Source of the DNA: Methanofollis fontis | GTDB lineage: Archaea > Halobacteriota > Methanomicrobia > Methanomicrobiales > Methanofollaceae | Assembly: GCF_004297185.1 (NCBI RefSeq) | Contig: NZ_PGCL01000002.1 | Coordinates: forward strand, 62,001 to 126,000 | Length of the DNA: 64,000 nucleotides | Direction of reading: 5' to 3' | In this document: positions 49,884-62,058 of the stretch, in pieces | Layout: the number at the start of each line of letters is the position of its first letter | Position numbering within the stretch: position 1 is the stretch's first letter | Made by a program: the position numbers and the translations under genes | Notes under the pieces: model-generated | What the model saw: only the letters and a program-made list of their open reading frames with translations | What the model was told of the DNA's origin: nothing | Databases searched by the model: none

Positions 49884-50045
49884 ATGGAGAAATACAGGTG
49901 TATGATCTGCGGCCATGTGTATGACCCGGCAAAGGGGGAGCCAAAACAGAACATCCCGCCCGAAACCGATTTTGCGGATATCCCGGACGACTGGACATGC
50001 CCGGTCTGCGGAGCGTCCAGGGATAAATTCAGAGCGGTGGCATGA
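49884..50045 (+). CDS. rubredoxin (second copy)
   Basis: A second 53-residue rubredoxin, [20 protein letters not shown] and [13 protein letters not shown], with the four iron cysteines. It overlaps the flavodiiron oxidase start by 4 bases (ATGA) and is thus the likely direct redox partner of that enzyme. GAGGAGCT precedes the start. The two copies differ in surface charge, which fits two electron routes. Confidence 0.95.
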
Positions 50046-51235
50046 CGATGGCGGTCAGAACTATTGCCCCGGACATCTACTCTGTCGGTGCTGTCGACTG
50101 GGAGCTCCGTCTCTTCGATGCCCTGATCGGTACCCCGCAGGGGACCAGTTACAATGCCTTCCTGGTGATCGGTCAGGAAAAGACCGCACTCATCGATACT
50201 GTCGAACCGCGGTTTGAGGAGGACCTGCTGAAAAATCTGATGCGGATCGGCATCTCTTCCCTCGATTACATCGTCATTAATCATGCAGAACAGGACCATT
50301 CAGGAACCCTTCCGCTCCTTCTCGAGATGTTCCCGGGAGCGACTGCGGTCACCAACGAAAAGTGCAAAGATCTGCTTGTCCATCTCCTTCAGGTCCCTGA
50401 ACACCGTATCAAGACCGTAAAAGACGGTGAAACGCTCGATCTTGGTGGAAAAACCCTTGAGTTCATGATCACGCCGTGGGTGCACTGGCCCGAGACGATG
50501 ATCACCTTCGAACGGGAGCAGGGTGTTCTCTTCTCGTGTGATCTCTTCGGGTCGCATCTGGCAACGAGCGAACTTTTTGTGCGGGACTTCACCGATGTGA
50601 TCGGTCCGGCGAAACGGTATTATGCCGAGATCATGATGCCGTTTGCCGCCAGCGTGCGGGGGGCGATGGAAAAAATCGCCGACAGAGACGTGCGGGTCAT
50701 CGCCCCGAGTCATGGACCGTTCTACGACGACCCCTCGCTCATCATGGACGCCTATGCGGAATGGTCCTCAGACCGGGTGAAAAATCTGGTGCTCCTCCCG
50801 TATGTCTCGATGCATGGGAGCACCAGGAAGATGGTTTCGGTCTTTACCGATGCCCTGATCGAGGGAGGGGTGGAGGTCCGCCCCTTTGACCTGACCTCTT
50901 CCGATCTCGGTGAGATCGCCATGACGGCCGTCGATGCCGCCACGATTGTCATCGCGGCGCCGACCGTGCTTTTCGGTCCGCATCCTGCCGCCTTCCATGC
51001 CGCATATGTGCTCTCAGCACTCAGGCCAAAGACGCGGTATGTCTCGATCATCGGATCCTATGGCTGGGGGGGGAAGACGGTCCAGAACCTGACCGATACC
51101 CTCTCTCATATCGGCGCCGAGTTGATCGATCCGGTCTACATCAGGGGGTATCCGAAGAGTGAGGATCTGACGGCGCTCAGGAACCTTGCAGACACAATCG
51201 TTAAGAAGCATGAGGGTGTCATCACTCGTCCATAG
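50042..51235 (+). CDS. fprA: flavodiiron F420H2 oxidase
   Basis: A 397-residue flavodiiron protein: N-terminal metallo-beta-lactamase-like diiron domain with HAEQDH at residues 81-86 (H81, E83, D85, H86), a WVHWPETM His, an Asp in FSCDLFG and a later SHGP His; then a flavodoxin-like FMN domain ([20 protein letters not shown]). In methanogens it oxidises F420H2 with oxygen to water, protecting the cell. It starts overlapping the rubredoxin stop and ends close to the superoxide reductase gene. Confidence 0.95.
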
Positions 51236-51246
51236 GAGGAATCGAG

Positions 51247-51630
51247 GTGACGAAACTCTTAGACGTCTACAAATGCGAAACCTGCGGCAATGTCGTCAAG
51301 ATCGCCCATGCAGGGGATGGTGAACTGGTCTGTTGCGGCGTGCCCATGATCCAGATGAAGGAGCAGTGGGAGGAGAGCGGTGTCGGTGAGAAGCATGTCC
51401 CTGTGCTCGAGGCAACGCAGGACGGGATTAAGGTAAAGATCGGGTCTATACCCCACCCGATGGAGGAGAAGCACCACATCGAGTGGGTCGAGGTCAGAAA
51501 GGGCAAAAAACTCTATGTCCACAAGTTGAAACCCGGCGAGGCACCGGAAGCCGAATTCCCGGTGAGCGATACCGGTGCGAAGACCCGGATCTACTGCAAT
51601 ATCCATGGTCTCTGGACCAACAAACCATAA
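51247..51630 (+). CDS. desulfoferrodoxin/superoxide reductase
   Basis: The 127-residue protein has an N-terminal desulforedoxin domain (C10, C13, C29, C30: YKCETCGN and VCCGVPM) and the active-site domain with GVGEKHVPVLE, HPMEEKHHIEWV and IYCNIHGLW, giving the four His-one Cys iron site. It reduces superoxide to peroxide with electrons from rubredoxin. Start GTG 51247, AGGAGG-like sequence just before. It is the last gene of the rubredoxin-FprA set, an oxygen-defence cassette. Confidence 0.95.
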   Translation: MTKLLDVYKCETCGNVVKIAHAGDGELVCCGVPMIQMKEQWEESGVGEKHVPVLEATQDGIKVKIGSIPHPMEEKHHIEWVEVRKGKKLYVHKLKPGEAPEAEFPVSDTGAKTRIYCNIHGLWTNKP

Positions 51631-51693
51631 CCCTCTTTTCCAGATCTCTGGTTCAGAGAATCTTTAATGCTCCGTCCACCCGTACAGGGAGCA

Positions 51694-52668
51694 ATGGAAA
51701 CACCCATGTTCAGGGAACGGATCAGTGCCTCTTCTTCGGTGTTTGTCATAGGGGTTGCCGGTGACAGCGGTTCTGGCAAGACCACCTTCACCCGCTCCAT
51801 CAGGGAGATCTTCGGGGATGATGTCGTCGCCACCATCACCCTGGACGATTATCACCGTTATGACCGGCGGGAGCGCAGGGCCCTCGGGATCACCCCCCTC
51901 CATCCGGGCGCAAACAATCTCGAACTGCTTGCAGGGCATGTGCGCACCCTCAAAGGCGGCGGGACAATCCTGAAACCTGTGTACAACCATGACAACGGAA
52001 CATTCGGGCCGGATATCCCATTCGGGCCATGCCGGGTGCTGATCCTGGAGGGACTCCACACGCTCTTCACCCGCGAACTCAGGGGCCTCCTCGATTTTTC
52101 CCTGTTTGTCGATCCCGACACCGACGTGAAGGAGCTCTGGAAGGTGAGGCGGGATATGCAACGGCGGGGCTACAGTCGGGCCGAGGTGCTCGCTGAAATG
52201 GAGGAGCGAAGACCGGACTATGAGCGTTTTATCGCCCCGCAGCGGGACCATGCCGATGTAATCATCCGGATATCCCGATCAACCTTGGGGACGGAGGCCA
52301 GCGAGGAATGCAACATCTACCGGGTCATGGTATGCCAGAAAAAACTCCTCGCCCGGATGATGGAGATTGGACTCTCAATCGACCTGGGAGAGGTCTTCAT
52401 GCTCTGTGAACGGCCGTTCCTCTTTGAATACGGCATTATCCCCGACCGTGCAATGAGTTCGCTCACCCTTGACGGCGAACTGAACGCCTCGGCGATACGG
52501 AAACTGGTCCGCACCATCGGAGACCAGGCAGGGCCTGAAAAACTCAGGATCCTCTCGAACCGCCATTATGTGACGGCCACCGATATCGCGGAACTGATCA
52601 TCGCATGGCGGATCATCAACCGGTGGTGTGTACTGGATGATCGTATGGCCGGGGATACAAAAGGATAA
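51694..52668 (+). CDS. prk: archaeal phosphoribulokinase
   Basis: The 324-residue kinase has the P-loop VAGDSGSGKTTF (residues about 22-33), the TLDDYHRYDRRERRALG segment, KPVYNHDNGTFGP and EGLHTLF of the phosphoribulokinase/uridine kinase fold. Closely similar proteins in Methanospirillum-type methanogens phosphorylate ribulose 5-phosphate and work with archaeal RuBisCO in a reductive hexulose-phosphate pathway. No RuBisCO gene is in the window. The ATG at 51694 with GGAGCA is preferred to 51667. Uridine kinase is the alternative function. Confidence 0.82.
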   Translation: METPMFRERISASSSVFVIGVAGDSGSGKTTFTRSIREIFGDDVVATITLDDYHRYDRRERRALGITPLHPGANNLELLAGHVRTLKGGGTILKPVYNHDNGTFGPDIPFGPCRVLILEGLHTLFTRELRGLLDFSLFVDPDTDVKELWKVRRDMQRRGYSRAEVLAEMEERRPDYERFIAPQRDHADVIIRISRSTLGTEASEECNIYRVMVCQKKLLARMMEIGLSIDLGEVFMLCERPFLFEYGIIPDRAMSSLTLDGELNASAIRKLVRTIGDQAGPEKLRILSNRHYVTATDIAELIIAWRIINRWCVLDDRMAGDTKG

Positions 52669-52695
52669 AAATCCGGCAGCCGTACCTTTCTCTGA

Positions 52696-54156
52696 ATGGG
52701 CCGTCTTGAGTATTTCTCCATTATCGCTCCTGATATGGGGAGAATTTTCAGGTTCATGGGGTTTGTTACTCTGCTTCCCCTCGGTGTTGCGGCCTACTTC
52801 GAGGAGTGGGACATGCTCGTCCCGATGGGTCTTGTGCCCCTCATCTTTGTCCTTCTCGGGAGTGCTCTCCTCACCATTCCCCGTCCCCCCCGGGAGGCGC
52901 GGCTCTCCGTTGCCTTTACGGCCGTGGCCCTGATCTGGTTCACCGCCGCAGTCATCGGGTCGGTGCCGTTTATTGTCGGGCTGCATATGCCGGTGACCGA
53001 CTCCATATTTGAGGCGATGTCGGGGTGGACGGATACCGGTCTCACCCTCCTTCCTGATGTCGATGCCACGCCAAAAACCCTGCTCTTCTGGCGTTCGTTC
53101 ATGCAATGGCTCGGCGGTCTCGGCATCGTCGCCTTCACCGTGGCCCTTGTCAGCAGGTCAGGGCTCACCCAGCGGGGACTCTACCGTTCCGAGGGGCGCT
53201 CGGAGGCCTTCATGCCGAGTGTGGTCGGCACCGGCATTGCGATGTGGCGGATCTACGGCATCATCACCCTCCTCTCCATCGGCCTCATCCTCCTCTCCGG
53301 CGTCCCGGTATGGGACGCGGTGAACCTCGCCCTCACCGCCATCGCTACCGGTGGGTTTACCGTGCATTCGGAGGGTATCCCCTACTATGACAGCGCACTT
53401 CTCGAATTTTTGCTAGTGCCGGTGATGCTGGCCGGAGCGATGCCCTTCAAACTCTATTATCTGATGTATTACAAACGTAAAGCAAGTTTTTTCGGTGACA
53501 GGCAGGCTGTTGCCCTCCTCTCCCTTGCCCTGATAGGGATTTTTGTGCTTTTTGGCGATCTCATCTTTCTGAGCGGGATCGATGCCTTCAGCGCCTTCAG
53601 ACAGTCGGTCTTCATGGCCACAGCGGCAATCACAAGCACCGGTTTCCAGAATACGTCCCCCTTCACATGGCCAACAGTGACAACCCTCTATCTGATCATG
53701 TTCATGCTCATCGGGGGGTCGTCCGGGTCGACCGCCGGCGGAATGAAGATCTCCCGCGTGCTGCTCGGACTGGAGGGATTGGTCTGGTGGTTCAAGAGGA
53801 TCTTCGTCTCGGGCAAGGCGATCGTCCCCTTCAGGCATGAGGGTCGGACGGTCCAGAGAAATATTGCAGAGGTTGAGGTCTCGAAGAATATGCTGATCAT
53901 CATCCTCTACTTCCTCACCGTCTTTGTAGGGACCATTGCCGTCCTCCACTTTGAGACCCCCACGATGTTTGAGTCGTCCAATGTGATCTTCGAGGTGGTC
54001 TCGGCGTTCTGCAACAATGGAATTTCCACCGGTTTTGTCAATCCAGAGATGAGTATCGGGGCAAAGTGGGTGTTTATCTTTGTGATGTGGTTTGGGAGAC
54101 TTGAGATCATGCCGGTGCTTGTGCTCTTCGTCGGACTGATCAAGGGGTTCGACTGA
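52696..54156 (+). CDS. trkH: TrkH/KtrB-type potassium transporter subunit
   Basis: The 486-residue protein has about ten membrane segments with the four repeated pore loops typical of Trk/Ktr channels, such as AMSGWTDTGLTLLPD, AIATGGFTVHSEG, AAITSTGFQNTSP and SAFCNNGISTGF, each with the selectivity-filter glycine. It moves K+ with a cytosolic TrkA partner not seen here. A 69-base gap to the nitrogenase-like operon holds that operon's TATA box. Confidence 0.92.
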   Translation: MGRLEYFSIIAPDMGRIFRFMGFVTLLPLGVAAYFEEWDMLVPMGLVPLIFVLLGSALLTIPRPPREARLSVAFTAVALIWFTAAVIGSVPFIVGLHMPVTDSIFEAMSGWTDTGLTLLPDVDATPKTLLFWRSFMQWLGGLGIVAFTVALVSRSGLTQRGLYRSEGRSEAFMPSVVGTGIAMWRIYGIITLLSIGLILLSGVPVWDAVNLALTAIATGGFTVHSEGIPYYDSALLEFLLVPVMLAGAMPFKLYYLMYYKRKASFFGDRQAVALLSLALIGIFVLFGDLIFLSGIDAFSAFRQSVFMATAAITSTGFQNTSPFTWPTVTTLYLIMFMLIGGSSGSTAGGMKISRVLLGLEGLVWWFKRIFVSGKAIVPFRHEGRTVQRNIAEVEVSKNMLIIILYFLTVFVGTIAVLHFETPTMFESSNVIFEVVSAFCNNGISTGFVNPEMSIGAKWVFIFVMWFGRLEIMPVLVLFVGLIKGFD

Positions 54157-54225: not shown

Positions 54226-55044
54226 ATGAAACAGATCGCCCTCTACGGGAAGGGAGGTATTGGAAAATCCACCACATCGGCCAATCTTTCTGCCGCACTG
54301 GGTGAGAGCGGCCTTGACATCCTGCAGATCGGCTGCGATCCAAAGCATGACTCCACCAGGATGCTGATGCACGGCGAGTGGATTCCAACGGTGCTTGACC
54401 TTGTCCGGGAACGCGGTGATGCCGGGATCGCCGTCGATGAGGTGGTCTTCCGGGGGTATGCGGGAGTCCGGTGCGTCGAGGCGGGGGGGCCCGAACCCGG
54501 TATCGGGTGTGCCGGGCGCGGCATCATCGCCACCTTCCAGCTCCTTGAACGGCTTGGAGCACTGGATGGAGATGTGATCGTCTATGACGTCCTCGGCGAT
54601 GTGGTCTGTGGAGGGTTTGCGATGCCGATGCGGGAGGGCTACGCCGAAGAGGTCTACCTGGTCACCTCCGGCGAACTGATGGCGCTGTATGCGGCAAACA
54701 ATATTGCAAAGGCCATTACGCGTCTGTCTGCACGCTCCCGGAAGAAATGCGCCCTTGCCGGCGTCATCTGCAATTCCAAGAATATGGAGGGCGAAGAGGA
54801 CCTGGTGCGTGAGTTTGCGTCCATGATCAACTCCGAGATGGTCGCCTGTATCCCGCGCTCCCGCACCGTCACCCTTTCCGAACTCAACCGGCAGACCGTG
54901 ATCGAATATGCGCCCGAATCCGAACAGGCGGAGGTATATCGCAGACTCGCACGGACCGTTGTGGAGAATGACCGGACGTCGATACCGACCCCCCTCACGA
55001 TCGATGAACTCGAGGACCTTGCCCGACGATTCGTGCAGGTATGA
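54226..55044 (+). CDS. NifH-like reductase (Fe protein homologue)
   Basis: A 272-residue NifH-like ATPase. Walker A GKGGIGKS (residues 9-16), [11 protein letters not shown], and the cysteines that hold the bridging [4Fe-4S] cluster: C95 in GIGCAGRG and C128 in [13 protein letters not shown]. It is close to CfbC, the F430 reductase component, but its downstream partners are two component-1-like proteins instead of the single CfbD. It delivers low-potential electrons to them with ATP. The nifH of true nitrogen fixation lies in nif operons with nifDK, nifEN and nifB, none of which are here. Confidence 0.85.
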
Positions 55045-56044
55045 GGGCTGCACCCTCACCGGCGCACTCTCGGTGACCACACAGATACGGGATGCTGTGA
55101 CGGTCGTCCATGGGCCTGCCGGGTGTGCCCATCACAATTTTTCAATTCTTCATGCCATCTCAGCCGAACAGGAGAGACCCTTCCTTCCTCCCCTGGTGTC
55201 GACGGCCCTTGGAGAGAATGATGTGATATTTGGCGGCGAAGAACGACTGGGGGAGACACTCGATCGTGTGGCGCGGCAGGGACCGGCGGCGATCTTTGTG
55301 CTGAGCACCTGCATCACCGAGACGATCGGTGACGACTGCGGGGCAGTCTGCGGGGAGGAGCGGGGAGTTCCGGTGATCCCGGTGCCCTCCGCCGGTTTCT
55401 TCGGTGGTGCCTTCTCTGAGGGTCTGAACGGCGCGCTCTCCACAATCATCGGTCTCTGTGACGGCGAGATGGGCGAGGAGACGACCGTCAATATCATCGG
55501 TGAAAAAAATCTCGAGTTTGAGGTTGACCAGAATTATGCGGAGGTGGAGCGACTGCTCTCCCTGATCGGTGTCAGGGTGAACCTCAGGTTTGTGCGCAGC
55601 ATAGCGTTTGACGACCTCAAACGGGTCGGTGACGCACGCCTGAACATCCTGCGGGAACCTGCCCTCAGGGCTGCTGGTGATGAGCTGAAAGAGCGATTCG
55701 GGACACCATTTGTCGATTCTTTTCCAATCGGGCTTGAAGGGAGCATCGCCTTTCTGCAGGAGGTCGGCGATGCCCTCGGTGTCCCTGTAGATGATGCCGT
55801 CGAGGCCGAAACAGCACGGCAGACCGAGATGCTTGCGTCTTTTGAGGATATGCGGGGCATGAGCGTTTCGCCCGATTCGTTCAGCCTCGGTTCCCTGGAG
55901 TATGCACCGGTGCGTCGGGTGATGGATGCCCTCGACCTGCAGTCCGATTCAGGGGATCGCCGTCCCCTCCCCTACAGCCCGCCTGTCGGCACTGCCGGGA
56001 TCCGCCGGTTGCTCCACCGCTGGAGGAGGGGAAGCCGTGTCTGA
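55004..56044 (+). CDS. nitrogenase component-1-like protein, D-type
   Basis: A 346-residue protein from ATG 55004 (TTG 55019, after GAGGA, is an alternative), overlapping the NifH-like gene. Cluster-type cysteines C16 (EGCTLTGAL), C41 (HGPAGC) and C103 (STCITET) match the three Cys per subunit that hold a P-cluster or [4Fe-4S] cluster between two subunits. No Cys or His for an iron-molybdenum cofactor is apparent near the C-terminus. CfbD, as I recall it, has the N-terminal 'HPRPSPI' segment, which is absent here, and it works as a homodimer. The protein is shorter than NifD (about 480). Confidence 0.78.
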
Positions 56045-57140
56045 GCATCTGTGCGCCGATCCCCTCTGGCCCTGCGCCATGTGCGGGGCGGTCTCGTGCC
56101 TCTCAGGATTTGAAGGTCTGGAGGTCGTGATCCATGGCTCTTCGGGCTGCTATTTCTATCCTGCCTCCCTGATTGGACGGCCGATCCATTCCACCCTGCT
56201 GATCGAAGAGGAGGTGATCTTTGGTTCGGCCGAGCGGTTGCGTCTGACGGTGGAGGGTGTGGGGGCATCGGGACAACCCATTGCGGTTGTGCAGACCTGC
56301 GTTCCGGCGGTCACCGGCGAAGATTTCGGGGCAATGCTCGACGGCGGGCAGGTCCTTCTCGTCGACAGTCCGGGTTTTGCCGGCGGCATGGAAGAGGGCT
56401 ACCGGCGGGCAATCGAGGCGCTTGAACCCCGTGTCGATCCCGATCAGACTGGGGTCACCATCGACGGTCTCAACCCGATGGACCCCTTCTGGCGGGGAAA
56501 CCTTCTCGAGGCCGAACGGCTGATCCGTCGGGCGGGGGGGCGAGTGGCAACGGCGATCGCTGCAGATCGATTTGAAACCCTTAAACACTGTGGACAATAC
56601 GTGGTATCCACAAATCCAGGGCTTTCCTGTGGGATCGGGGAATCTGCCGGCAATCTGCTCGGCCTGGGTGCGACCATTGCCGCTTTCTGCTGCCTTGCTG
56701 ATCGGAACGAACTCGATGCATCCCCGATCATACAAGAGGCGGAAGAGGCAGGAGGGCGTATCGAGCGCGCCTGCGACAAATATCTCTCCAGATCGGATCC
56801 GCCGTCCGTGGCGATCTTTGCGGAGGAGGCATATGCGGGGTATGCGGCCGACACCCTCAGGCGCTATCTTGATGCGGAGATCGTCGTGTGCGCACCCAGG
56901 ACCGGACCGGATGCGGTCACCTCCCTTGCAGAGGTCAGGGAACTGATCGACGATGGACAACCCGACCTGATCCTGGGATCCACCTATGAGCAGGCGGCGG
57001 CGCCGGGGATCCCCTATGTCCCCCTCACCTTCCCGCAACGCGGTCGTATCCGTCTCCATGCCCGCCCGATCGTCGGGATCGAGGGAACCCTCTCCCTGAT
57101 GGACGATGTGCTCACTGCCTGCGGTGGCAGGGGTTCATGA
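56037..57140 (+). CDS. nitrogenase component-1-like protein, K/E-type
   Basis: A 367-residue second component-1-like protein from GTG 56037 with an excellent GGAGGAGGGG ribosome binding site, overlapping the D-type gene by 8 bases. Cysteines C13/C16/C21 (PCAMCGAVSC), C38 (HGSSGC) and C88 (VQTCVPA) fit a subunit that shares a cluster with the D-type partner. Later parts (NPGLSCGIGESAGNLLG, FAEEAYAGYAADTLRRYL) are typical of the Rossmann-like domains of this superfamily. A D2K2 heterotetramer is the natural inference. The stop codon abuts that of the convergent ECF operon. Confidence 0.76.
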   Translation: MSEHLCADPLWPCAMCGAVSCLSGFEGLEVVIHGSSGCYFYPASLIGRPIHSTLLIEEEVIFGSAERLRLTVEGVGASGQPIAVVQTCVPAVTGEDFGAMLDGGQVLLVDSPGFAGGMEEGYRRAIEALEPRVDPDQTGVTIDGLNPMDPFWRGNLLEAERLIRRAGGRVATAIAADRFETLKHCGQYVVSTNPGLSCGIGESAGNLLGLGATIAAFCCLADRNELDASPIIQEAEEAGGRIERACDKYLSRSDPPSVAIFAEEAYAGYAADTLRRYLDAEIVVCAPRTGPDAVTSLAEVRELIDDGQPDLILGSTYEQAAAPGIPYVPLTFPQRGRIRLHARPIVGIEGTLSLMDDVLTACGGRGS

Positions 57141-57920
57141 GAGCAGGAGGACGAGCGGCACACATGCCATCACGAGGACGAGGAGCACAATATCCTCCCT
57201 TCCAAACGGATGCGTCTTCCAGCATGTCACCCTGCTGCTGCAGCCAAAACCCCGGCATTGCATCGCCTCCGACACCTGTTTTGCACGTGAGAGTACGGTG
57301 ACGGTTGCCGGGATAAATAGCGCCATCATTTTATGCCGGTTGTGTACGATGGTGCCCCGGTCGAATTCGAGTGCCCGAGATCTCTGGGCGTCCATTATTG
57401 CCTCAATATCACTTGAAAGTGCTGAGATCGACCTGAGAGCGTAGCCGAGAGAGAAAGCAAGGGTATTGGGGAGGCCGATTGCCCTGAGGCTCCCGACAAA
57501 ATCCGAGTAGGGCGTTGTCATCATGAAGAGGACCGATGCCCCGCCGATCAGGAGGAGTCGCAACCCCATTGCGATCGAGAAGAGGAGGCCGTCGGTCGAG
57601 AGTGTCGGGTGGAGTAACCAGATTTCCGCCGAAAACCAGATTGTCCCGCCGACAACACGCGAGAAAAAGGCATCGATGACGAGAATGAAGATCAGGAGGG
57701 GGATAAAAAGGCGCATCGCCCGGATAAACGGTCTGAAGAGATCGCATGCGAGTGCGGCAGTGGTTACAAGGGCAAGCATGAGGGCGAGGGGGAGGGGCTG
57801 CTGTGTGAGCAGGGCGGCGGCGCTGAGGATGATCAGGGCGGCCGCCTTTGTCACAGGGTTCAGGCGGTGGAGATAGGATGAACCGCTGATATAGCGGATA
57901 CCCCCTGAGCGGTGCTTCAT
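57135..57920 (-). CDS. ECF transporter T component (CbiQ-like)
   Basis: The 261-residue membrane protein has about five to six hydrophobic segments and the coupling motif region MDAQRSRALEFDR followed by the second A-R-G-like QVSEAMQCRGFG, which contact the ATPase. These are the T components of energy-coupling-factor vitamin or metal importers. It overlaps the ATPase gene by 4 bases upstream and its stop meets the stop of the K-type gene in TCATGA (57135-57140). Confidence 0.85.
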   Translation of the reverse strand: MKHRSGGIRYISGSSYLHRLNPVTKAAALIILSAAALLTQQPLPLALMLALVTTAALACDLFRPFIRAMRLFIPLLIFILVIDAFFSRVVGGTIWFSAEIWLLHPTLSTDGLLFSIAMGLRLLLIGGASVLFMMTTPYSDFVGSLRAIGLPNTLAFSLGYALRSISALSSDIEAIMDAQRSRALEFDRGTIVHNRHKMMALFIPATVTVLSRAKQVSEAMQCRGFGCSSRVTCWKTHPFGREDIVLLVLVMACVPLVLLLS

Positions 57921-59359
57921 GGTCCTTCCCCCCGCAGGAGTCGCCCGCCCTGGAGAGTCACAACTCTCCCGCCGGTCAGGGTGATGAAGTCCGGATCATG
58001 TGTGGCGATGAGCACGGCGGCGCCATGTGCCGAGCGCTCCCTGAGCACCGCCGCAAGGTCGGTCTTTCTCCGGACGTCGAGCCCGAGCGTCGGTTCGTCA
58101 AGGATGATGATCGGTGTGTCCATGGCGAGGATGGAGGCGATGGCGAGGCGCTGTTTTTCGCCCACGGAGAGGGAGAGGGGAGGGGCGTCGGGCCCGATCG
58201 CCAGGAGATCGAGCGCCCGGATCAGGTGTTTGATGCTCCGTTCAATCCTGCCGGGTTCATGATCCAGGTTCCCGGGGCCGAAGGCGATCTCCTCCCGGAC
58301 CGTCTCGGCGAAGAGGTGGGTGTCGGCGTGCTGGGGGAGAAAACCGACTGATGAGGCGACTTCCGCCACCGAACGCGTCCCGATCGGTCTGCCCCTGACA
58401 TTCACTTCGCCGCTGTCAGGGCGGAGAAGACCGTTCGCACACCGCAACAGCGTGGTCTTCCCGGAACCATTGGGTCCGGTGAGAAAGACGATCTCTCCGG
58501 CATGGACAGAGAGACTGACCGAATCGAGGACGGGTTCCTCTCTCCCCGGTCGGCAGACGGTGATCTCTTTGAAGGTGATGGCGGGTGTCGTGCCGGGGGA
58601 GATCAGGGGCCCTTCCATCCCTGCCGAGTGTCCGGGTGCAGCGGCATACCCCTCCGCCGGACCGTCGTAGATCATTTTCCCGTCATGGAGGGCGATGACG
58701 CGGGTGCACGACGGCAGAACCGTGCCGATACGGTGTTCGGCGAGGATCACCGTCAGGCCCCGCTCCTGGTTCAGGCGTGCGAGCGTGTTGAGGAGGTGTT
58801 GTGCCGTTTCTGCGTCGATGCCGGAGACCGGTTCGTCGAGGAGAAGCACTGCGGGCTCCATCGAGAGCACAGCGGCGATGGCAAGGCGCTGCCGCTCGCC
58901 CCACGAGAGGGCGTCTGTCTCCCGGTTGATGAGATGGGCGATGTCGACTGCCGACATGGCATGCTCCACCCGCGCCGTGATCTCGTCGGGTGGGATGCCG
59001 CACTGTTCCGGGCCGAAGGCGATCTCGCTCTCGACATCGGTGCAGAAGAGCTGGTAGTCGGGGTTCTGGAAGACCGTGCCGACCTGTTGGGCGATCTCGC
59101 AGACCTGATGTTCCCGCGTATCCATGCCGACGACGCTCACGCGCCCTGCCATTGCACCGTCATGGGAATGCGGGATGAGACCGTTGATGCAGCGCAGGAG
59201 GGTGGATTTGCCCGACCCTGACGCCCCTGCAAGCAGAACGAATTCGCCTCGCCGGATGGAGAATGTGAGATCGTCGAGGACCGTCGCCCTCTCCACCCGC
59301 CGCCCGCCCCCATAGGAGACGGTGAGGTGGTCTGCCGCCACGACAGGGTCAGGTCTCAT
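57917..59359 (-). CDS. fused duplicated ECF ATPase (A1-A2)
   Basis: A 480-residue fusion of two ABC ATPase domains: Walker A GASGSGKST (about 40-48) and GPNGSGKTT (about 290-298), signatures LSWGERQRLAIAAVL and LSVGEKQRLAIASIL, and Walker B ILLLDEPVSGID-like (VLLLDEPVSGID) and IIILDEPTLGLD. ECF systems usually encode EcfA and EcfA' separately; here one chain carries both. It overlaps the S-component gene by 11 bases and the T gene by 4, so one operon. It powers import of the S-component substrate. Confidence 0.88.
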   Translation of the reverse strand: MRPDPVVAADHLTVSYGGGRRVERATVLDDLTFSIRRGEFVLLAGASGSGKSTLLRCINGLIPHSHDGAMAGRVSVVGMDTREHQVCEIAQQVGTVFQNPDYQLFCTDVESEIAFGPEQCGIPPDEITARVEHAMSAVDIAHLINRETDALSWGERQRLAIAAVLSMEPAVLLLDEPVSGIDAETAQHLLNTLARLNQERGLTVILAEHRIGTVLPSCTRVIALHDGKMIYDGPAEGYAAAPGHSAGMEGPLISPGTTPAITFKEITVCRPGREEPVLDSVSLSVHAGEIVFLTGPNGSGKTTLLRCANGLLRPDSGEVNVRGRPIGTRSVAEVASSVGFLPQHADTHLFAETVREEIAFGPGNLDHEPGRIERSIKHLIRALDLLAIGPDAPPLSLSVGEKQRLAIASILAMDTPIIILDEPTLGLDVRRKTDLAAVLRERSAHGAAVLIATHDPDFITLTGGRVVTLQGGRLLRGEGP

Positions 59360-59894
59360 TGGTTCCGATCACTCCGGCCCTCATCAGGCGGGCAAGAACC
59401 AGTGCACCGATCACACCGCCGATCCCGCCGAAGATCAGATGCGTCACCGAGGAGATGCCGATGCCGAGGAGGATGAAGGTTGCGGGAACACCGAGGAGAA
59501 GGTGGACGGCATAGTTCACCGACATCTTGACGATGCTCCCCGCACCACCGGCAATGAACCCGACCACCGGGTGGTCCATGCGGTGTGAGAAGGCGACACC
59601 AACGATATCGATCGTCACGCCCATCGCAAGGAACTTCAGGATGTCAAAGATGTGATAGGCTTCAAAACCGAAGAACGAAGCCAGCAGGCCGGAAATAAGT
59701 CCGATATACGCGCCCGCTCCCGCTTTCCGTACAACACCGCACCCGAACACGAACGGAACAGCGACGAGCAGATACGAGTGGCCCGGAAGATGGAGGGAGA
59801 GGTTGACGAAGGTCTTTGCCACAAAAACCAGGGCGCCGCAGAGTGAGAGGATGGCGGTCTGATAGAGGGTAAAATACGGTTTTCTCATCTCCAT
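59349..59894 (-). CDS. ECF transporter S component, substrate unknown
   Basis: A 181-residue membrane protein with five to six hydrophobic segments (AILSLCGALVFVAKTFVNL; YLLVAVPFVFGCGVV; GAYIGLISGLLASFFGF; IGGVIGALVLARLM) typical of ECF S components, which bind the substrate. The family cannot be told from sequence reading; it is not the CbiM/NikM nickel-cobalt type because the N-terminal His-rich start is missing. ATG 59888 would give an ATGA overlap with the preceding gene; 59894 is two codons earlier. Its placement suggests the operon imports the substrate or cofactor of the nitrogenase-like enzyme (inference). Confidence 0.75.
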   Translation of the reverse strand: MEMRKPYFTLYQTAILSLCGALVFVAKTFVNLSLHLPGHSYLLVAVPFVFGCGVVRKAGAGAYIGLISGLLASFFGFEAYHIFDILKFLAMGVTIDIVGVAFSHRMDHPVVGFIAGGAGSIVKMSVNYAVHLLLGVPATFILLGIGISSVTHLIFGGIGGVIGALVLARLMRAGVIGTNET

Positions 59895-60700
59895 CCAGCC
59901 GCCTCCGCAGGTTCGGTGTGTATCCACAGCGAGAAGGAGTCGGGCTGTGGTTGATCGACCGCCACGCAGAGGCAGACGCTTCCCACCTCGCTGCCGCCGG
60001 TATGGGTGATAAAAAATCGTCCGGAGGGTGGGGCGTCGGTGACGATCTCGCCCTTCCAGTGTGCGAGATCAGAGGTGATGTGGATGGCGTCCTCGCCGCT
60101 CCCGACGAGCGGGAACCAGAAGGTCATGACGCCGGTGGTGATCTCGTCTGGCCCGAGGCCCATGGTGTTGGCAAGTCGCACCCGCACCGGGAAGGTGTTC
60201 TGGAGCACGGAGACCTGCGGCATCACCTCGCCTGCCGGTGCATCGCCCCGGACGGTCCAGCCGCAGGCGCCATAGCCCTCCTGTCTGGAGGTCCAGGATT
60301 TCCCGAATCCGGCACGCGTGCCGTAGAGGTAGAAGGCGGCGGTGCCTGAGAGGTTCTGGAAGGCGTAGTCCACCGCCACCGAGCGCTGCCTGAAGAGGGC
60401 GGGGTTGCCGCCCTGCGGTGTGTCGTTGAGCATCACAAAGGCAAGGTACCACAGGGTGCCGTTGTCTGTCTCCGGTATGGTGTTCAGGGAGAGGGGTTTG
60501 GCATAGGGCCGGTAGTCCTGTGGGCCGTAGAGAAAGGCGACTGCAGTCAGGGTGATCTCAGAATGAGGGATGGGGGACGCCACCTCCTCTCCGGTGATGG
60601 CCATGACCTCACGTTCGGCGATCCCCTGTGCGATCATGGCGGCGGCAACTGCAAGGATCAGAAGGGCAACCGCAATCGCCGCCTTCCGTTCAAAATCCAT
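59885..60700 (-). CDS. membrane-anchored exported protein, unknown
   Basis: A 271-residue protein with one N-terminal hydrophobic segment (AAIAVALLILAVAAAMIAQG, residues about 7-26) and then a soluble outer domain rich in beta-strand patterns (LWYLAFVMLNDTPQG, AAFYLYGTRAGFGKSW, RVRLANTMGLGPDEITTG). A late CLCV pair is the only cysteine cluster. No family is recognised. It lies between the TiaS-like and S-component genes (1 base upstream, overlapping downstream), so it is a likely extracytoplasmic partner of the ECF importer, perhaps binding the substrate. Confidence 0.6.
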   Translation of the reverse strand: MDFERKAAIAVALLILAVAAAMIAQGIAEREVMAITGEEVASPIPHSEITLTAVAFLYGPQDYRPYAKPLSLNTIPETDNGTLWYLAFVMLNDTPQGGNPALFRQRSVAVDYAFQNLSGTAAFYLYGTRAGFGKSWTSRQEGYGACGWTVRGDAPAGEVMPQVSVLQNTFPVRVRLANTMGLGPDEITTGVMTFWFPLVGSGEDAIHITSDLAHWKGEIVTDAPPSGRFFITHTGGSEVGSVCLCVAVDQPQPDSFSLWIHTEPAEAAGWR

Positions 60701-60701
60701 C

Positions 60702-61406
60702 TCAGTCCCGTTTCACGGCAACCATCCGGCCGTCGATCTCCTCAACAAACAGAACAGTCTTCCCGCCTACAGGACAGGGTTTCACCGATTTGCCGGTTTC
60801 TGCCTCGATGGTCCCACTGAGGACCGGTCTTCCGTCAAGGGTATGGATGCAGTCGATGCCGGCGGCGAGGAGTGCCGTTGCCTCGGCAGGGCCGGTGATG
60901 CTCCGAATGCCGCCAATCTGGAGGAAACGTCCGTCGTTCCCTGCGTGTGCAAGACCGAGACCTGCCATGCAACCGATGACCCCATCTTCTGTTCCTCCCA
61001 GTCCTTCCAGCATGATGCCGAGGTTTTCCGCCAGTGAACGCGCCTTTGTCTGCGTGAGCACCGTGGATTTTGCATCTTTGCCGAAGGCCATCAGCGAGGG
61101 GGTAATGCGCCCCTCGGCGGCGACGGCAAGGCCTGGATCACTCCCTTCGATAAAGTCGTCGAGCATCATCTCTCGCACCGTTCCGAAGATGGAACGAACA
61201 TTGTTTTCACCTGCATCACGCAGGTGGATGACGGCACACGAGTTGTGCGAGGTGTAGGGGATGGCCTCGTTGACATAGAGCTGGTGACGGGTGACGCCGA
61301 AGACGTCGTATTCCCGGGCAAGTGCGGCGGCGACTGCACGCGCCAGACGCCCTGTGCCACGGGAATTCAGGTTATCGGTATCGTCCATCGATACATAGAC
61401 GGTCAT
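60702..61406 (-). CDS. TiaS N-terminal-like protein
   Basis: A 234-residue protein beginning MTVYVSMDDTDNLNSRGTGR, the acidic DDTD nucleotide-binding start seen in archaeal TiaS (the enzyme that adds agmatine to tRNA-Ile), but lacking TiaS's long C-terminal RNA-binding part. HNSCAVIHLRDAGENNVRS, GKDAKSTVLTQTKARSLAE and GLGGTEDGVIGCMAGLGLAH suggest a kinase- or ATP-using domain of its own. It is the first gene of the ECF operon. A TATA-like CTTTTATTCA about 30 bases upstream gives a near-leaderless start. The substrate is unknown. Confidence 0.65.
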   Translation of the reverse strand: MTVYVSMDDTDNLNSRGTGRLARAVAAALAREYDVFGVTRHQLYVNEAIPYTSHNSCAVIHLRDAGENNVRSIFGTVREMMLDDFIEGSDPGLAVAAEGRITPSLMAFGKDAKSTVLTQTKARSLAENLGIMLEGLGGTEDGVIGCMAGLGLAHAGNDGRFLQIGGIRSITGPAEATALLAAGIDCIHTLDGRPVLSGTIEAETGKSVKPCPVGGKTVLFVEEIDGRMVAVKRD

Positions 61407-62058
61407 AGAGATCTGATCTACTCCTTGTCGGGCATTGAATAAAAGGATGCGGAAATGATCGCAAAATAACGGCGGCAACTCCTGAAATCCGGTCATATGG
61501 AAATGGTTGAGTTAATGATTTGTAGTTACCATCCTCCCCCCATCCGTCGATGAGCGGGCGCGGCCGTCCGGTCGGGTGACGGGTATGGGGAAGGTCGACC
61601 ATGCCGAAACTATTATATTGTGTGGGATCATTAACAATAATTGGTTGATTAACCTGGAATGTTAATCAACAAATATGTACTGGCAGACCACACCATCGGT
61701 TGCACATCGGGCACATGTGCGTATCGGGGGATCTGGGGGCACACTCTCTCCATCATGTTGTCGGTTGAAGGGCAGAAACGGGCCTGTTCGGTCTGTTCCA
61801 TGGCGTTTCGCTGCACTGCACACATACCCTCACACCGGGAAAAACGTTTCACCCACCACCTTCCTGCTTTCGGATGATCCCCCTTTTTCTTTCTGTGAAT
61901 GTGCCCGCAAAGACGCTTGATTGAGACTTTTCAGGGCTCTATGGCATTATGGCAGCATTCAATCCCTGCAGGCGCCTCATATCAACACCCACAAATACTA
62001 TCGTTCTCAATCAGTGCACATGGTTATTTCCGCCTGCCCGAACAATCAGGAGATCACC
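61407..62058. other. 650-base interval without a supported gene
   Basis: Frames seen here (for example from 61659) are short and not protein-like. The interval holds the ECF operon promoter at its left end, the inverted repeat at 61644-61670 with a nearby TTAACAATAATTGG, and otherwise nothing that I can assign. Confidence 0.4.
61644..61670. promoter_or_regulatory. inverted repeat with GATTAAC half-sites
   Basis: GTTGATTAAC (61644-61653) and GTTAATCAAC (61661-61670) are perfect 10-base inverted arms around a 7-base spacer. The half-site GATTAAC is shared with the 18-bp palindrome at 43603-43620 and with two further single sites at 62373-62379 and 62461-62467. Confidence 0.5.

Follow-up and report, generated by a model that had tools for sequence, protein, structure and literature searches.

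The window analysed here, 64,000 nucleotides of Methanofollis fontis (contig NZ_PGCL01000002.1, positions 62,001 to 126,000 of the forward strand), carries three overlapping genes, here called H, D and K, that encode a nitrogenase-type Fe protein and two component-1 proteins. As read from sequence, HDK is a real, order-wide and uncharacterised nitrogenase-family complex of the Methanomicrobiales that shares the Fe protein of coenzyme F430 synthesis, CfbC. The reading that we prefer, at a probability of about 0.5, is that D and K form an ATP-driven reductase that shares CfbC electrons with the F430 enzyme CfbD and has an organic molecule, perhaps a tetrapyrrole of the F430 type, as its substrate. 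Among the bonds reduced by nitrogenase-like enzymes are some of the most difficult in biology, and a new reaction has come out of every branch characterised so far; the D/K branch is near-universal in a major order of methane producers and has its electron donor in common with F430 synthesis. Together, the D/K pair and the shared Fe protein point to an unknown reduction step in Methanomicrobiales.

The HDK locus

54226..55044, + strand: H, NifH-type Fe protein, almost certainly functioning as CfbC (PF00142, F430_CfbC, the only NifH-like gene of the genome)
55004..56044, + strand: D, alpha-type nitrogenase-like component 1 without domain III (PF00148 positions 1-265/399, alignment, model)
56037..57140, + strand: K, beta-type nitrogenase-like component 1 with all three domains (PF00148, alignment, model)

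The genes lie on one strand and overlap by 41 nt (H/D) and 8 nt (D/K), and K overlaps tail to tail with the first gene of an energy-coupling factor (ECF) importer operon in the letters TCATGA at 57135-57140. H has 272 aa (PF00142, Fer4_NifH, E 1.5e-108), and its cysteines C95 and C128 are invariant in 18 relatives. D has 346 aa from an ATG at 55004 (PF00148, Oxidored_nitro, E 6e-63), with cluster cysteines C16, C41 and C103; K has 367 aa from a GTG at 56037 (PF00148, E 9e-33), with C13, C38, C88 and additionally C6, and all of the D and K cluster cysteines, K C6 included, are invariant in alignments of 26 relatives. An initial annotation, made from the letters of the window alone, had listed these genes with their overlapping ends and stop-to-stop junction, the two cysteines of H and the three spaced cluster cysteines of each component-1 protein; all of this was confirmed, the gene inventory by Pfam and NCBIfam profiles and coordinates. 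Within the genus of the window, H has a dN/dS of about 0.05-0.15 and D and K have one of about 0.2-0.3, and all three genes are under purifying selection. Given this dN/dS range (about 0.05-0.3) and conservation across the order, the locus is more than a chance arrangement.

H as the probable Fe protein of F430 synthesis

Genome counts refer to a class-level search set of 149 genomes, counted as Methanomicrobiales, and to a wider phylum set of 295. A role of H as an Fe protein dedicated to D and K, as implied by the initial annotation, is ruled out by three observations: H is the sole NifH-type gene of the window genome (362 bits; runner-up 44 bits), it scores as CfbC, and it persists in genomes that have lost D and K. 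Against the NCBIfam model F430_CfbC, H reaches 414.7 bits, above the cut-off of 402. The four further H proteins scored from Methanomicrobiales all lie at 406-422 bits, the Methanosarcinaceae- and Methanocella-type CfbC proteins (families f8 and f14) 404-416 bits and the f15 protein 378 bits. Under NCBI models H would be labelled CfbC, and D and K would receive a generic component-1 name.

Most of the 149 genomes, many of them closed, have one H, and each methanogen genome has one CfbD. The cfb operon of Methanomicrobiales is cfbE-cfbD-cfbB (CfbE, CfbB and CfbD confirmed by NCBIfam models) and holds no cfbC; in f8, f14 and f15 it is cfbD-cfbC-cfbB. A cfbC concealed in the contig gap upstream of cfbD was ruled out, since closed relatives run cfbE-cfbD-cfbB with nothing between. 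The annotation had suggested looking for a true cfbCD copy elsewhere in the genome, and half of one is there: a single cfbD (C2:549-1622) lies about 115 kb from H, but there is no second cfbC. Two genomes (G115 and G025) have H with CfbD as their only component-1 protein, which implies that H must work with CfbD. Because H is the only NifH-type protein, scores above the CfbC cut-off and belongs to genomes whose cfb operon has no cfbC, it almost certainly serves CfbD as well, that is, it is the CfbC of the order. The system is to this extent like CfbCD, H being the only Fe protein available to the CfbD of the genome. It is unlike CfbCD in that the H gene sits with D and K and not with cfbD, and in that CfbD is a homodimer with two aligned cluster cysteines whereas D and K are heteromeric, have 3+3 cysteines and form separate clades.

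A second archaeal lineage has such an arrangement: in L101 (G149) and in family f7 genomes the only Fe protein lies in a different HDK operon, and the cfb operon is without cfbC (the operon of one genome was checked).

Distribution and phylogeny of D and K

K is present in 138 of the 149 genomes. Nine absences are well supported (genus g26 with seven genomes, g14 and g30), and a PF00148 search of these nine found no H-linked D/K of this type; two further genomes (G145 and G146) are also without K, but their assemblies are fragmented. Genus g26 is presumably Methanospirillum, and its lineage lost D and K and kept H. No K orthologue was found outside the order among the 295 phylum genomes, where full-length matches above 400 bits were all from within the order and the others reached at most about 118 bits. 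The best 80 K loci in a scan of species genomes all came from Methanomicrobiales or from Euryarchaeota metagenome-assembled genomes, at 43-67% identity. Most loci have the three genes side by side; in Methanoculleus-like genomes K lies a few kb away.

In a tree of 88 proteins, D and K each form a clade (support 99/100 and 100/100), and both clades lie outside CfbD (itself a 100% clade), NifDE, NifKN, BchN/B and a MarDK-like clade, the last identified through the solved MarD chain of R. rubrum, which is matched at 248 bits (runner-up 103). The tree thereby bears out the earlier proposal of a component-1 pair separate from CfbD, NifDK/EN, BchNB and MarDK-like proteins; its deep sister groups do not resolve, as the long branches of BchN and of fused HD proteins attract D. 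Family models agree with respect to CfbD: D and K score 39.7 and 32.8 bits against TIGR03282, which has a cut-off of 268. Judged by their sequences, D and K are distinct lineages specific to the order Methanomicrobiales. No description of this D/K pair was found in the open-access literature. The main text of the 2009 Methanomicrobiales genome paper is silent on nitrogenase and F430, and the nitrogenase-like pair reported from Methanocorpusculum is a different one, with 2+1 cysteines and beside an ABC transporter (Dos Santos et al., 2012).

Other nitrogenase-like proteins were seen in these searches. Fused NifH-NifD proteins of about 730-800 aa occur both in genomes of the Methanosarcinaceae type and in the g26 Methanomicrobiales, which are without D/K (L086 in G262, L223 in G086 and L228 in G137, also G109, G079, G128 and G265); the fusion was Pfam-confirmed in L086 only, and several of the genomes then have a K-like protein of about 430 aa. 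Methanoculleus-like genomes encode a lone component-1 protein of about 400 aa, with no H or partner, 2.4 kb from cfbD (L099:6930-8159 in G001 and L100:5996-7183 in G149, also G002, G004, G008 and G020), and these proteins form a 100% clade of their own. DK pairs resembling methylthio-alkane reductase are also found within Methanomicrobiales (L090 in G007, L098 in G014), three of them in one genome.

Cluster sites and the missing domain of D

All six P-cluster cysteine positions of the Mo-nitrogenase NifDK are kept in D and K, at alignment columns 62, 88 and 169 in each protein; the same columns hold two cysteines in CfbD and one cysteine plus an Asp in BchB. The likeness to NifDK ends at the catalytic cofactor. 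In NifD the third domain carries the histidine ligand (His442) of the iron-molybdenum cofactor (FeMoco). The PF00148 match of D ends at position 265/399, with the third domain absent, and D is about 347 aa long in all relatives (about 350 aa vs about 480 for NifD), so that D is without the FeMoco histidine domain. In the column of the cofactor cysteine (Cys275 in NifD, Cys250 in NifE), D has a gap beside an invariant arginine (R217). A frameshifted or assembly-truncated D gene was ruled out, since every relative has a similarly short D. K retains all three domains. Residues on the active-site side are strongly conserved, namely GEKNLE, SFPxGL and R217 in D and RPxxGxEG in K.

AlphaFold models place D (pLDDT 86) closest in fold to NifE and BchB chains and K (pLDDT 92) to NifN and NifK chains. 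By profile, the closest solved relatives of D are NifE (163 and 119 bits) and then MarDK (96-99 bits), and those of K are NifE/NifK (93 and 85 bits). With BchNB (DPOR) and BchYZ, D/K shares the fold and the lack of a metal catalytic cluster site, which makes an organic substrate plausible. It differs from BchNB in that the three positions filled by Pro, Asp and Cys in BchB are all cysteines in K and in that D is without domain III; the BchB model gives 92.6 bits against a cut-off of 490, and K has a cysteine at the BchB Asp position. DK thus appears to be built to take electrons through an interface cluster, with no site for a FeMoco or L-cluster of known type. Such an architecture (a P-cluster-type site, no catalytic-cluster site and an alpha subunit without its third domain) would separate electron entry from the metal active site.

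Proposed function

We infer that H donates electrons to both CfbD and DK and that DK reduces an organic substrate. H, as CfbC, would give ATP-gated electrons to the distantly encoded CfbD for F430 synthesis, and D and K together would be a second, heteromeric acceptor of the same Fe protein. The entry point for electrons would be a metal cluster between D and K, ligated by the 3+3 cysteines at the P-cluster position (the position comes from the alignment, the cluster type is predicted), and from it the electrons would pass to an organic substrate sitting where nitrogenase holds its cofactor. The substrate is put there because D has lost the cofactor cysteine and the histidine-bearing domain. 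Our best guess is that this substrate would be a tetrapyrrole from the pathway to F430: CfbD and DPOR offer the analogy, and CfbC is shared. CfbCD takes three double bonds out of the tetrapyrrole ring (PMC7242693), and modified F430s exist whose biosynthesis is unknown (PMC9081873). The latter paper also reports that one member of the Methanomicrobiales has been genetically manipulated. A fuller picture, in which the P-cluster half is complete, the alpha subunit has shed its entire catalytic-cofactor half and the F430 Fe protein serves two unrelated acceptors, one of them for an unknown reduction (possibly an order-specific modification of F430), is tentative and falls somewhat short of even odds.

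Several results weigh against a shared-CfbC reductase of a tetrapyrrole. Known tetrapyrrole reductases are without part of the six-cysteine set (PMC9391474), and the full set in D and K is therefore a mild argument against a DPOR- or CfbD-like substrate. D and K are outside the cfb operon, and since Methanospirillum-like genomes without them must still make F430, DK is not needed for basic F430. In maximum-likelihood trees H sits closer to Fe proteins encoded in other HDK operons than it does to CfbC. The placement is less clear-cut in approximately unbiased (AU) tests: with Class I methanogens left out, grouping H with the CfbC encoded beside cfbD gave p 0.032 (33 rows) and 0.10 (50 rows); an AU value of p 7.6e-48 came from pooling scattered single H genes, some from other clades, and is uninformative on the H of the window.

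Alternatively, the substrate of DK might be a small molecule other than a tetrapyrrole, such as a sulfur compound or some unsaturated metabolite, with methylthio-alkane reductase and the isethionate enzyme as precedents. Retention of all six P-cluster cysteines, as in Nif and Mar, speaks for this; yet D and K, which have the HDK organisation in common with MarHDK, branch away from the MarDK-like clade, no sulfur genes neighbour the locus, and the ligand of the catalytic cluster of Mar and Nif ([8Fe-9S-C] in Mar) is absent from D/K, which together make a small substrate rather unlikely. It is less probable still that DK is a NifEN-like scaffold that holds or matures an Fe-S cluster, such as the [8Fe-9S-C]-type cluster found in the MCR activation complex, H then being the partner that NifEN usually has. 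L-type clusters do occur in that complex (PMC12176620), in sequence D matches NifE best or nearly best, NifE is also a top fold neighbour of D, and NifN is the top fold of K. In all relatives, however, D is without the NifE L-cluster cysteine and third domain; there are no nifB or nifDK neighbours, the clades are apart from NifDE and NifKN, and all methanogens activate MCR, whereas DK belongs to one order and is absent from its Methanospirillum-like members. A role as an accessory or regulator of CfbD with no product of its own (an electron buffer, or a chaperone for Ni-sirohydrochlorin diamide) would fit the common CfbC, the order-wide occurrence and the truncated D, but sits poorly with the strong conservation of the active-site-side motifs of both proteins and with a gene order that shows no CfbD-specific link; we consider it improbable.

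Neighbouring genes and the ECF importer

57135..57920, - strand: ECF T component, CbiQ-like, a neighbour judged to lie outside the system (PF02361, E 2e-28)
57917..59359, - strand: A, fused ECF A1-A2 ATPase, neighbour (PF00005 in two stretches; TIGR04520/04521 above cut-off)
59349..59927, - strand: S, putative ECF S component, neighbour (membrane protein; no Pfam/NCBIfam match)
59885..60700, - strand: X, exported or membrane-anchored protein, neighbour (no Pfam match; found together with S)
60702..61496 (start possibly 61406), - strand: TCKD/Mmp11-like protein, neighbour (sub-threshold profile matches; found with S and X)
52696..54156, + strand: TrkH-like transporter, often found upstream of H across the order (synteny)
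51667..52668, + strand: phosphoribulokinase/uridine kinase-like protein ("PRK", a sequence-based name), often upstream of H, also in D/K-less genomes (synteny)

The model of the initial annotation, in which the importer supplies a separate HDK reductase with its substrate or cofactor, is very improbable. In its favour, the two operons lie tail to tail or side by side in eight genomes (G000, G023, G026, G030, G045, G054, G081 and G111), all of the genus of the window. The S component is found in 30 of the 149 genomes, leaving 119 without the importer; the importer is away from the HDK locus in the 21 importer-bearing genomes outside the genus, as well as in G120, and it is near none of 80 further K loci. 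Since adjacency is confined to one genus, the association is a matter of local neighbourhood, coupling of the importer to HDK is ruled out by synteny across genomes, and we judge that the importer is not part of the HDK system. Of the separate, linked system that had been claimed, the separateness of D and K therefore stands on the tree, and the linkage fails the comparison of synteny that the annotation itself had named as its test. The importer operon forms a conserved unit in its own right, as S, A and X keep together: in 20 S loci that were read, A and X were always alongside and the TCKD-like protein nearly always.

The region upstream of H (window 50042-54156) holds FprA, desulfoferrodoxin-like, phosphoribulokinase-like and TrkH-like genes that recur upstream of H across the order, also where D and K are lost. 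The TCKD/Mmp11-like protein scores 19.8 bits against TiaS TCKD (cut-off 27) and 34 bits against methan_mark_11 (cut-off 256). It is a putative kinase, and the ECF operon (window 57135-61496) may import and modify a vitamin-like compound.

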